NCBI GenBank assembly: GCA_005880315.1
Contig: VBHB01000086.1
Span: 1 to 32,172 of the forward strand
DNA: 32,172 nt
Reading direction: 5' to 3'
DNA from: Chloroflexota bacterium
Lineage (GTDB): Bacteria; Chloroflexota; Dormibacteria; Dormibacterales; Dormibacteraceae
Shown here: positions 1 to 29,242 of the stretch, piece after piece
How positions within the stretch are numbered: the stretch's first letter is position 1
Layout: each line of letters starts with the position of its first letter
Position numbers and translations under genes: made by a program
The notes under the pieces: generated by a model
The model's input: only the letters and a program-made list of their open reading frames with translations
What the model was told of the DNA's origin: nothing
Database searches by the model: none

Positions 1-837
1 GGTCGCCGTCTCGAAGCTCTCGCGGTCGACAGGATCGAGGCGGCGTGAGTCGATCTCCCGGAGGTAGCCGAGGGCGTTGGCCACATGGTTCCTGAGGTTG
101 TGCACGACGCCCTCGACCGCGCGGCTGTGGAAGAGGTGTCGATCCGCATCCGACAGCTCATCCTCAAGCACCCTTCGCACCCGCCTGCCGGCGATCGTGT
201 CAGTTAGCGCCAGAGCCAAGATGCAGACAATGGTTGCTAGGAGATAGCCCAGCAACGTTCCGTCAAGCACGTAGCTGATCAGGAGAGAGGCCAGATTGAA
301 ATACACGAGCGCAAGCCCAAACGACGGCGTGAGGTTGTGGCGAACAACCTTAAGGACCGACTCGCCTGATGGAAAAGACAGCCCGACTGCGATTAGAGAC
401 AAGTTGGCGACATCGAATGTAAAGAGCGTGATTAGTCGAGGTATCAGAGGAATTGTGTTGTCGAAGCGAAAGTAGGAGGCCATCAATGCGCTCACCCACG
501 CGATCGCTGCATAGCTCGCTGCGTTTGATAAGACAACTCGGAATCCTCGTCCCGCGTGTCCTAACGCCATTCCTAGGCCGGTGAGCGTTGCGTCGAGTGG
601 GTTCATCAAGATCGCGGCGGCTCCAATCGCCACTCCGGTTAGGGATAGATAACCCCGGTCAAGGCGGACGCGTGGCAGGTTAAGCAACGCTGACGCAAGG
701 AGTAGGTACAGAACGGTGAGCACATCGTCGGGATGATGAGCGTCATCGCGAAGCGTCAGCAGGTTCGCAACCACTATGGCGCCGGCGAGAAGCGCCAAGT
801 ACGAGTACAGGTAGAGGCTACTTAAAGACCGAACCAT
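1..837 (-). CDS. Membrane sensor histidine kinase, truncated by window start (TM sensor region plus DHp-like helix)
   Basis: Hand translation of the reverse strand from ATG at 837 is open to position 1 (279 codons): MVRSLSSLYLYSYLALLAGAIVVANLLTLRDDAHHPDDVLTVLYLLLASALLNLPRV...ILALALTDTIAGRRVRRVLEDELSDADRHLFHSRAVEGVVHNLRNHVANALGYLREIDSRRLD. Several TM segments, then a phosphoacceptor-like VVHNLRNHVANALG. Not in the ORF track, probably because no stop lies in the window. Confidence 0.7.
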   Translation of the reverse strand, partial: MVRSLSSLYLYSYLALLAGAIVVANLLTLRDDAHHPDDVLTVLYLLLASALLNLPRVRLDRGYLSLTGVAIGAAAILMNPLDATLTGLGMALGHAGRGFRVVLSNAASYAAIAWVSALMASYFRFDNTIPLIPRLITLFTFDVANLSLIAVGLSFPSGESVLKVVRHNLTPSFGLALVYFNLASLLISYVLDGTLLGYLLATIVCILALALTDTIAGRRVRRVLEDELSDADRHLFHSRAVEGVVHNLRNHVANALGYLREIDSRRLDPVDRESFETAT

Positions 838-860
838 CTCTTCTTGTTAAGCTGCGCGCC

Positions 861-1541
861 ATAGCCAAGGCTGCATCGGATCGAAAGGAATACCGCGTCC
901 TCGTCGTCGACGACAGCGTCTTGCCTCGCGCGGCTGCTCGAACCATGCTCGGGACGGCGGCCGGCCTGCGCTTGGTGGGAGAGGCGTCGTCTGGGACTGA
1001 GGCACTCCAAGCAATGGGCAAGATCAAGGCCGATCTGGTGCTGATGGACGTCCACATGCCCGGCATGGATGGCGCCGCAACCACTCGGGAGCTATTAGCT
1101 GAATTCCCAGACGCAAAAGTCATCGCGTGGACTGTATCGGAGTCGAGTGACGATCTACTACGGATGATGCGGGCAGGCTGCTGCGGCTATGTTCTGAAGG
1201 ACGTTGGCCCGGCGGAGTTACAGCGTGCACTATGGAGCGCTATTCGAAGCGAAAGTCCGGTGCCGCGCAAGATGATTCCAGAAGTGCTTAGGCGGGTTGC
1301 CGAGCAGACGCCCCTCTCCCACGCTTCTGGCACCGTCCCATTGACTTCCCGGGAGATGCAAATTCTCCGGGGTGTCGCGAAGGGATTGCCGACCAAAAGG
1401 CTTGCCCAGCAGCTTGGCCTCAGGGTGCCATCAGTGGAGACTCACCTCCATAACCTCTTCAGGAAGCTGAATGCTGCCAATCGCGGTGAGGCGGTAAGTA
1501 CGGCGATGAAGTTGGGGCTCATTACACTAGCCGACCTCTAG
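861..1541 (+). CDS. NarL/LuxR-type response regulator (receiver + LuxR HTH)
   Basis: Receiver YRVLVVDDS...VLMDVHMPGMDG...GYVLKD and C-terminal LuxR HTH (LTSREMQILRGVAKGLPTKRLAQQLGLRVPSVETHLHNLFRKL). The track start (TTG 921) would cut off the VVDD acidic pocket; the frame is open upstream but has no ATG/GTG/TTG nearby. ATA 861 or CTG 852 are the candidate starts. Confidence 0.85.
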   Translation: MAKAASDRKEYRVLVVDDSVLPRAAARTMLGTAAGLRLVGEASSGTEALQAMGKIKADLVLMDVHMPGMDGAATTRELLAEFPDAKVIAWTVSESSDDLLRMMRAGCCGYVLKDVGPAELQRALWSAIRSESPVPRKMIPEVLRRVAEQTPLSHASGTVPLTSREMQILRGVAKGLPTKRLAQQLGLRVPSVETHLHNLFRKLNAANRGEAVSTAMKLGLITLADL

Positions 1542-1570
1542 TTTCTTGCTCATGGATTCCCATGTGAGCA

Positions 1571-1590
1571 CCTCATGGCTTTCCATGAGG
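1571..1590. terminator. Hairpin downstream of the response regulator
   Basis: CCTCATGG-CTTT-CCATGAGG, perfect 8-bp stem with 4-nt loop; a second small hairpin CATGG-ATTC-CCATG at 1551-1564 precedes it. No strong T-tract. Confidence 0.5.
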
Positions 1591-1701
1591 GTGTCTCATT
1601 GAAATTGACTATGGGCAACCCCAGGCCCCCCGGGCAGACTTGCACCAACGTGACTTGGACACAACGGCTGCTAGAAATCTGAGGACGGAGGGGTATCTGT
1701 A

Positions 1702-1773
1702 ATGGTGCGCATCGTAAGGAGACTTCTGCGCGGCGGAGGCAAGTCCCGGGTCGTCGGTATGTGGATCACCTAG
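1702..1773 (+). CDS. Possible 23-aa small ORF (MVRIVRRLLRGGGKSRVVGMWIT)
   Basis: ATG preceded by purine-rich GGACGGAGGGG; short and basic; no homology support available. Confidence 0.2.
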   Translation: MVRIVRRLLRGGGKSRVVGMWIT

Positions 1774-1875
1774 GCTGATTCAAAGTAGGGGTTCTCTGGT
1801 GACGGGGAGCCCCTTTCTAGCGAGTTGAGCTTGGGTGGCCTTGCTCGCAACCCGTCGGTCTAGAATTCCAGCGTC

Positions 1876-4434
1876 TTGCCTACCTTTAGTTCGCTCTCGT
1901 GGTCGGCGCGACTCTACTTGGTGCTGGTCTTCATTGCCGGCGCCGCGATAATTCCGGTTGCCTGGGTAGTCCACCCGCTCTCAGACGGAAGCCTACGGAC
2001 CGCCCTTCCTACCCTGCTCTACTTGGCTGTTGGGACTCAGATCGCGGCCCTTCGGCCCATTCCGTGGAAAACGGGGTATCAGTCGGTCGTCGACCCATTG
2101 CTTGTGGCAACCGGTCTTCTCGCACCTGGGGCGGGAGTCGGCCTGGTTGCATGGATCGCCGTGTTTGACGGTCGGGTACCCGGTCGAAACATGAACTGGT
2201 GGCAGTTCTTGTTCAATCGGGCGATGCCTGCCACCGCCCACGTGATTCCTTCGCTGGCGGTAGCCTCGATTGGCGAAGACAGTTGGTGGGCAGTGCCTGC
2301 TCGAACTGCGATCTATGTGATTGCGGCAGTCGGCCTCAACTATCTGATGACAGCGATTCTGTTTTCGTTCATCAGACGCACATCGTTTTGGACGACCATC
2401 TCTCAGAACGTCGGAGCATCGACCATGGTTGCCACGCTCGCTCTGAGTTTTGCTGGCGGCATCCTATACCTACTACTCAAGACCCCCCCCATCCCTGTCG
2501 GTTACATCATGGCCCCCGGCTTGTTTGGATTTGTACTGGCCGTTCGAGGAAATGTTGCTGACGCACAGCGCCAAGGGGAGCTCAAAGACCAAACCCTCGA
2601 CCTGGCCGCTCAGGCACTTGATGCCCGCGATCGTTACACCGAATCACATTCCATCCGCGTTTCTGAGCTAGCTGGCAAATTGGGAGAACAACTTGAACTC
2701 GGTGATCGAGAATGCGAGCTGATTCGAACGGCAGCATCGCTCCATGACCTTGGAAAGATCGGAGTGCGGGACGATATTCTCAACAAGCCAGGGCCATTGA
2801 CCGAGGACGAGTGGGAGATCATGCGTCGACATCCCGATATCGGCGCGGACATGATCGCTCAGCACTCGGCCCTGGCGGAAGTTGCACCATTGGTGCGCCA
2901 TCATCACGAGCGTTGGGACGGTACCGGTTACCCAGCGGGTTTGAGAGGCGATGTGATCCCGTTTGGAGCACGTATTTTGTCGGTCGCGGACTCATTTGAC
3001 ACAATCACAGGGCCGCGTCTTTACCGACAGTCGCTAATGACGCCTCTCGAGGGGGTCGACGATATCAGCCGCCGAGCAGACCACTGGTATGACCCCAACG
3101 TAGTCGATGCGCTTCGCGAGATTCACGGACTCAAGCCGCTCGAGCTCGCCGACCGTCCAACGGTGCCTCGGAAGGTAACCAGCCTTCGGGTACTGCGCTC
3201 AAACCCGGCATTCAGTAGTCTCCTTACGGCGATCGGCATCTCGTCTCTTGGCGATCCGCTCACCCAGGTCGCGACGCTTGTATCGATTTTTCTGGTTACG
3301 GGAAGTGCACGCAACGTAGCGATTGCGTTCATCGCTCAGGCTTTAGGCACGATCCTCATGACGAGCATCGTTGGGGGGCTAACGGACAGGTTCCGGCGCA
3401 GATCTTTGATAGTGACGCTGGAACTTACGCGCGCCGCCATTCTTCTGGGCACCCCGGCGCTAATTCATACATGGATTTGGTTCATTGTCCCGATACTGTT
3501 CTTGCTGGCGTGTATCAACGCTGTGGTCCAGCCGGCGAGGCAAGCCGCGATTCCGAGCCTTGTACCTGCTGGGCAAGTTGGCAAAGCTAACGCGCTGGTT
3601 GCGGCAACCATGATGCTCGCCAGCGCTGTTGGATTCGCGGTGGCTGGATTGATTTTGGCCTGGTTAAAGTCGACGGTGCTGCTGTTCGTCGCCGACGCTG
3701 CTACCTTCGCCCTGGCAGCGCTTATCACGCTAGGCATTCCAAGCCTTGGTGGTGGCGCCACTTCAGCTCGACTCGCCGGTGCATTGCGTCGGACTTGGGC
3801 GATTGCGGCGGCGAGGCCGCATCTCGTTATGGGAGTACTCGCAGCATTCTTCCTCACGATTAGTTATCCAGCTCTACTGGCGCTTGCCTACGTCTTGTCT
3901 GGGAAGAGTGGTGGCCAGACTTATTCAATGCTCGAAGTAGTGGGATCAATCGGAATCTTCCTCGGGTCGGTTGCTGTTGGCCGGTTCGGGTCCATCGGCA
4001 GCATGCGGACAGTTGGTGTTGGTCTGTTCTTGACCGGAGTCTTCTCTGTTTCGATCGCAATGAGTCCTTCGCTAGTGATAATCGCGGTCGCATTGCTGAT
4101 GGCCTCTATTGGCAACCCCATATACGCAGTTGCGAATCAAACCGCGCTTCTCGAGGTTGCCGACGCATCGAACCGCGGCAGTGTAATGGCAATCCGCTTC
4201 GGCCTTGTGCAAACAGCGACGATCGCCGGAGCGGCTACCGGCGGTCTGATTCTCGCGTCGTTCGGCCCAGCTGGACCGTTCGTGGCATACGGAGTTCTAG
4301 GTGTGGGTCTAGTGCTGCTGGGGATGTATGCATTAGCTGCGGGGCGTAGCACGGTCAACCCGATCATCGGCGCTCCCTACGAAGAGGCGCAGGTCAAGGC
4401 GGCCGCTGCGGGCAGCAGCAGCCAGGTAACTTAA
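1876..4434 (+). CDS. Trimodular fusion: N-terminal TM sensor region + HD-GYP phosphodiesterase + C-terminal MFS (DHA3/EntS-like) transporter
   Basis: One uninterrupted 852-aa frame: multi-TM N-terminus; HD-GYP motifs TESHSIRVSELAGKLG...SLHDLGKIGVRDDILNKPGPLTEDEWEIMRRHP...HHHERWDGTGYPAGLRGDVIPFGARILSVADSFD; then about 400 aa MFS (SFSSL-type start, GGLTDRFRRRSLIV loop, multiple TM). TTG start 9 nt after TAGAAT. Confidence 0.88.
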   Translation: MPTFSSLSWSARLYLVLVFIAGAAIIPVAWVVHPLSDGSLRTALPTLLYLAVGTQIAALRPIPWKTGYQSVVDPLLVATGLLAPGAGVGLVAWIAVFDGRVPGRNMNWWQFLFNRAMPATAHVIPSLAVASIGEDSWWAVPARTAIYVIAAVGLNYLMTAILFSFIRRTSFWTTISQNVGASTMVATLALSFAGGILYLLLKTPPIPVGYIMAPGLFGFVLAVRGNVADAQRQGELKDQTLDLAAQALDARDRYTESHSIRVSELAGKLGEQLELGDRECELIRTAASLHDLGKIGVRDDILNKPGPLTEDEWEIMRRHPDIGADMIAQHSALAEVAPLVRHHHERWDGTGYPAGLRGDVIPFGARILSVADSFDTITGPRLYRQSLMTPLEGVDDISRRADHWYDPNVVDALREIHGLKPLELADRPTVPRKVTSLRVLRSNPAFSSLLTAIGISSLGDPLTQVATLVSIFLVTGSARNVAIAFIAQALGTILMTSIVGGLTDRFRRRSLIVTLELTRAAILLGTPALIHTWIWFIVPILFLLACINAVVQPARQAAIPSLVPAGQVGKANALVAATMMLASAVGFAVAGLILAWLKSTVLLFVADAATFALAALITLGIPSLGGGATSARLAGALRRTWAIAAARPHLVMGVLAAFFLTISYPALLALAYVLSGKSGGQTYSMLEVVGSIGIFLGSVAVGRFGSIGSMRTVGVGLFLTGVFSVSIAMSPSLVIIAVALLMASIGNPIYAVANQTALLEVADASNRGSVMAIRFGLVQTATIAGAATGGLILASFGPAGPFVAYGVLGVGLVLLGMYALAAGRSTVNPIIGAPYEEAQVKAAAAGSSSQVT

Positions 4435-28761: not shown

Positions 28762-29130
28762 GTGCAGGTCGCGATCTACACCGGCAAGGACCCGGGTGGG
28801 AAGCGGTTTCTGAGCACGCTGGAGCGCCGGATCGGCCGCCAGGAGATCAGGGCGTGGGAGGTCCGGCGCAAGAGTCCCCTCACGCTCGTCCACTCGGGGG
28901 AGCGCTACGCCGGGGTCCGGGTCACATTCATCCCTTCCGGGACGCGGAGCTTCTCCCGGGTCGCCAAGGAGGGCAAGCTGGGCGCGTTTCGCTCCCCCGA
29001 GCCGTCCCTTGTCGCCACCATCGCCGGGAGCTCGCAGGTCGATCGGGTGCTGGGCTTCCTGGTTGGCTTGTTGACCCGGCATGCGGAACACCTCGGGGTC
29101 GAGGGCGTCGGCATCCCGCTGACCGAATAG
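28762..29130 (+). CDS. Hypothetical protein (122 aa)
   Basis: MQVAIYTGKDPGGKRFLSTLERRIGRQEIRAWEVRRKSPLTLVHSG...; GTG start 6 nt after TATTGT. Confidence 0.55.
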   Translation: MQVAIYTGKDPGGKRFLSTLERRIGRQEIRAWEVRRKSPLTLVHSGERYAGVRVTFIPSGTRSFSRVAKEGKLGAFRSPEPSLVATIAGSSQVDRVLGFLVGLLTRHAEHLGVEGVGIPLTE

Positions 29131-29143
29131 CATTCCCGATGCT

Positions 29144-29242
29144 GGGGATGTTCGAGAGCTGGTGCTCTCCGCGGTCTTCAAAACCGTTTGCGGGGCGCTG
29201 TGAGGCGTCCTGGGTGGGTTCGATTCCCATCCATCCCCGCCA
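29144..29242 (+). tRNA. selC: tRNA-Sec (anticodon TCA at 29178-29180), CCA encoded
   Basis: 7-bp acceptor GGGGATG(29144-29150)/CATCCCC(29232-29238); 6-bp D stem GAGAGC/GCTCTC with 4-nt loop TGGT; anticodon arm GCGGT-CTTCAAA-ACCGT; long variable arm GGGGCGC-TGTGAG-GCGTCCT (7 bp with two G-U); T arm GTGGG-TTCGATT-CCCAT; G73 and CCA. Confidence 0.9.

Follow-up and report, generated by a model that had tools for sequence, protein, structure and literature searches.

The window analysed here, a stretch of 32,172 bases that makes up one entire contig (C184) of a MAG, carries a genuine bacterial tRNA-Sec gene, selC, which we consider, with a probability of about 0.97, to be a working gene in a complete bacterial selenocysteine pathway. 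The source MAG amounts to 3.25 Mb in 258 contigs and is 92.3% complete and 1.6% contaminated. A preliminary description had placed a 99-nt tRNA-Sec at 29144-29242, and both its position and its length proved exact by ARAGORN, RF01852 and reading of the sequence. ARAGORN called a single tRNA in the window, tRNA-SeC (tca), at 29144-29238 on the plus strand, and the sole Rfam match at the gathering threshold was RF01852 (tRNA-Sec; curated cut-off 47 bits), which covered the same positions at 68.8 bits (E = 3e-12) and was full length, spanning model positions 1-91. The runner-up RF01852 match in the whole genome was an ordinary tRNA-Gly at 43.7 bits, indicating that selC is single-copy and well clear of background; the remaining weaker matches were tRNA-Ser, -Leu and -Arg. 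The features of the gene are as follows.

29144-29242, plus strand: selC, tRNA-Sec gene of 99 nt with G73-CCA encoded (ARAGORN; Rfam RF01852, 68.8 bits; sequence)
29144-29151, plus strand: 5′ strand of the acceptor stem, GGGGAUGU; position 8 is U29151, opposite C29231 and unpaired (sequence)
29154-29169, plus strand: D arm with a 6-bp stem GAGAGC/GCUCUC (29154-29159 / 29164-29169) and loop UGGU (sequence, Rfam)
29171-29187, plus strand: anticodon arm with loop CUUCAAA; the anticodon UCA is at 29178-29180 (ARAGORN, sequence)
29192-29211, plus strand: variable arm with a 7-bp stem GGGGCGC/GCGUCCU (29192-29198 / 29205-29211) and loop UGUGAG (sequence)
29214-29230, plus strand: T arm with a 5-bp stem GUGGG/CCCAU (29214-29218 / 29226-29230), first pair G-U, and loop UUCGAUU (sequence, family comparison)
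29231-29242, plus strand: 3′ strand of the acceptor stem, CCAUCCCC (29231-29238), discriminator G73 (29239) and CCA (29240-29242) (sequence)

The anticodon TCA, the 6-bp D stem with its 4-nt loop, the 7-bp variable arm and G73-CCA, all given in the preliminary description, were confirmed in the sequence, and two of the seven pairs in the variable stem were found to be G-U. The acceptor stem (29144-29151 / 29231-29238) comprises seven pairs and the unpaired U29151-C29231, the U-C mismatch already noted at the eighth pair, and the acceptor-T helix has an 8/5 geometry in which this pair is mismatched both here and in 30/30 family members. The gene resembles E. coli-type selC (RF01852) in its UCA anticodon, 6-bp D stem with 4-nt loop, long variable arm and G73, as well as in having 8 nt per acceptor strand and a 5-bp T stem. 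It differs in the eighth acceptor pair, which is U-C here and A-C in some relatives, so that the acceptor-T helix consists of 12 standard pairs and one mismatch instead of 13.

By analogy with the known bacterial system, the tRNA would be charged with serine by SerRS, SelA would convert Ser-tRNA to Sec-tRNA with selenophosphate from SelD, and SelB would deliver Sec-tRNA to UGA codons that have a SECIS hairpin downstream; our observations depart nowhere from this standard scheme. The genome search for selA, selB, selD and fdhA that had been proposed earlier recovered selA, selB and two fdhA genes, but not selD. Both selA (493.8 bits against a cut-off of 267.9) and selB (356.5 bits against 242.25) lie on another contig of the same MAG, C107, in keeping with the earlier remark that selC stands apart from them. 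On this 4-kb contig they are adjacent and form an operon at 324-3517 with a 4-base overlap (selB starts at 1688 and selA ends at 1691), flanked by a site-2-protease-like gene before and a methylenetetrahydrofolate-reductase-like gene after, both cut by the contig ends. The SelA sequence shares 62-92% identity with that of records titled Candidatus Dormibacteraeota and Dormiibacterota, of soil 'Chloroflexi' MAGs and of one unidentified bacterium; with every other record its identity reaches about 50% at most. Since its closest SelA relatives are Dormibacterial, the organism is assigned to the class Dormibacteria as a soil member.

No selD scored above the cut-off in the 92%-complete assembly, in which the best matches were ThiL and PurM: the weak match on C58 lies inside a thiE-thiL-tsaE-tsaB-rimI-tsaD stretch and is ThiL, and that on C90 is PurM. 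Because selD was found above the cut-off in 36/42 genomes of the order, including 5/5 congeners, and the MAG is 92% complete, its absence here is most likely a gap in the assembly. Among the 30 selD genes read, 28 have TGA at the HGAGUACKLSP active site and the other two a Cys codon, so SelD itself appears to be a selenoprotein in the family; Sec-containing SelD is common in bacteria (PMC1794560). The Cys-type genes come from two genomes of different genera (G031 and G001), apparently through two separate Sec-to-Cys changes.

At least four genes in the MAG, found among targeted families and hence an incomplete list, are interrupted at a redox active site by a single in-frame TGA. Two of them are fdhA genes for formate dehydrogenase alpha, on C119 (SCNRTU-HAPSVVGL) and C195 (QARVU-HGPTVVSL), each open apart from the one TGA, and one TGA lies inside the Fdh-alpha match in 30/30 order genomes with a strong match. 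The others encode a peroxiredoxin-like protein on C133 (TGGU, in DFTGGURTEL) and an AhpD-like protein on C211 (CxxU as CRYU, in NRCRYULSAHT), both with U where the catalytic Cys is expected. Together with selA-selB, these four genes with TGA at catalytic positions bear out the proposal that the organism probably recodes UGA. No selenouridine synthase (SelU/YbbB) was found in the genome, which suggests that selenocysteine is the sole use made of selenium, in line with an earlier survey of Chloroflexi (PMC1794560). For the fdhA on C119 (2389-4300), alignment to the Fdh-alpha model begins only at about position 51, as it does in nearly all family genomes, which suggests that the N-terminal Fe4S4 part is absent or separately encoded; the gene is followed by a NuoE/F-like fusion gene and then by an iron-sulphur protein.

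The preliminary description had also called for a search for SECIS-like hairpins. Folding of the first 45 nt after the fdhA UGA in ten relatives predicted a hairpin with a GGUCU loop, the same loop as in E. coli fdhF. This loop is invariant and the 6-bp upper stem is able to pair in 8/8 distinct sequences, including that of this genome; in this genome's own copy, however, another predicted fold is slightly better, so that the hairpin, the predicted fold in the relatives, is not the predicted optimum here. No compensatory changes were seen across the 8 distinct sequences, and covariation supports the hairpin neither way because the stretch is nearly invariant. Hairpins were predicted after the selD UGA too, less uniform than those after fdhA, and the prediction is likewise less clear for the peroxiredoxin-like and AhpD-like genes.

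Upstream of selC in the window are genes for DUF1015, an FmdB-type zinc ribbon, thioredoxin and a 122-aa protein, and downstream are an AraC regulator and a LysE-type transporter. In most of the relatives read, selC adjoins the DUF1015-FmdB-trxA group. The 122-aa protein (28762-29130), which lies between trxA and selC, is without a Pfam match and occurs beside selC in only two congeners, where it is 82-84% identical. No promoter or terminator consensus was found near selC, which says little in this lineage. As had been observed before, the window holds no obvious selenoprotein: for each TGA-ended gene checked, reading on past the TGA led either into the following gene, which has a start of its own, or into a stretch that was short or out of frame, and three in-frame extensions, after the Tim44-like, GlpD-like and M24-like genes, were rejected as being the next gene. 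The earlier warning that UGA-ended ORFs may be truncated selenoproteins thus holds for the genome (two fdhA, the peroxiredoxin-like and the AhpD-like genes, with selD in relatives) but not for the window, where no TGA is followed by a homologous continuation.

The genes for the tRNA, for SelA-SelB and for the selenoproteins lie on separate contigs of the MAG, so that any one of them could have been binned in error. Family-wide conservation, which extends to tRNA-Sec, Sec-containing SelD and UGA-containing fdhA, argues against such an error. It also bears on whether selC might be a relic, a gene kept after the pathway was lost, with no SelD and no decoding. This was considered because selD is missing above the cut-off in the assembly, and the mismatched eighth acceptor pair would fit it as well; it was dropped after the search of 42 relatives and is now very improbable. 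The preliminary description had reserved this outcome for a complete genome lacking selA, selB and selD, whereas we found selA and selB intact and above their cut-offs, selD in congeners, several genes that require UGA read-through, and a mismatch fixed family-wide beside intact machinery.

Slighter still is the chance that selC encodes a tRNA that looks like tRNA-Sec but is charged differently, for example a selC* tRNA-Cys or an allo-tRNA, which resemble tRNA-Sec in their long acceptor, anticodon and variable arms (PMC7609411). The UCA anticodon, G73 and 6-bp D stem with 4-nt loop speak against it, as does the presence of a single copy in a genome whose selA-selB and UGA-containing genes need a tRNA-Sec and which holds no second candidate for that role. 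A pseudo-tRNA or chance match, for which we found no supporting point, has a negligible probability in view of the RF01852 E-value of 3e-12 in the window, and is refuted by family-wide conservation, every arm being common to 30 family members. A working selC in a complete pathway is therefore the reading that we retain.

The mismatch was followed through the family, where position 8, opposite C, is U in 24, A in 6 and paired in none of the 30 tRNAs read, whereas pairing is intact at positions 1-7 and in the T stem. This comparison of sequences indicates that the mismatch is a fixed trait of the family and not a sign of decay. The eighth pair is formed in 22/28 other Chloroflexota tRNA-Sec and unformed in 6/28, in a biased sample of the best-scoring ones, and it is unformed in 4/5 tRNA-Sec from other phyla; bacterial tRNA-Sec mismatched at this pair are therefore not rare. 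Some bacterial tRNA-Sec are known to have an acceptor-T helix of 12 bp (Santesmasses et al. 2017, PMC5330540), and selC here is like them in its twelve standard acceptor-T pairs. Those tRNAs, however, have only 7 residues from the T stem to G73, and in many of them a nucleotide is bulged, whereas selC has 8 residues on both strands and a mismatched eighth pair. Recognition by SelB and rejection by EF-Tu depend chiefly on the long acceptor stem (PMC7609411), so the mismatch could have a role. It might, though we think this rather unlikely, be a functional mismatch that stands in for the usual eighth pair and helps to exclude EF-Tu and to admit the family's SelB, with SelB and the tRNA having changed together.

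Across the order, tRNA-Sec was found in 32/42 genomes and in 18/19 near-complete ones, and the figure for the phylum, 247/301 genomes, is an upper bound only, weak matches being counted in it. The Caulobacter, Thermus and Thermotoga control genomes also passed the RF01852 cut-off, so bare tallies at the cut-off may overcount. One congener (G037, 6% contamination) gave three tRNA-Sec matches, on contigs C213, C111 and C13, which may be extra copies or the product of mixed bins.

The bacterial Sec trait has been defined by SelA, SelB, SelC and SelD, with FdhA and SelD as the commonest selenoproteins and with peroxiredoxin and AhpD-like proteins also listed (Zhang et al. 2006, PMC1794560). That machinery recurs here, and so do its two leading selenoproteins; the differences are that selC lies apart from selAB and that the trait spans a whole family of Dormibacteria. 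Knowledge that Chloroflexi use selenocysteine dates back to 2006 at the latest, when a survey listed 3 selenoproteins for them (PMC1794560). No published work on selenocysteine or selenoproteins in Dormibacteria was found in the literature searched, though one may still exist. A Dehalogenimonas genome paper also mentions tRNA-Sec. What we describe is an ordinary bacterial Sec system in a little-studied lineage, and the general picture of how selenocysteine is encoded is unchanged by it. The results nonetheless indicate that UGA is recoded as selenocysteine in an uncultured family of soil Dormibacteria. Gene callers would consequently cut the genes for formate dehydrogenases, for selenophosphate synthetase and for some proteins that handle peroxides into two pieces, and MAG annotation for formate and redox metabolism would miss or truncate these UGA-containing genes.
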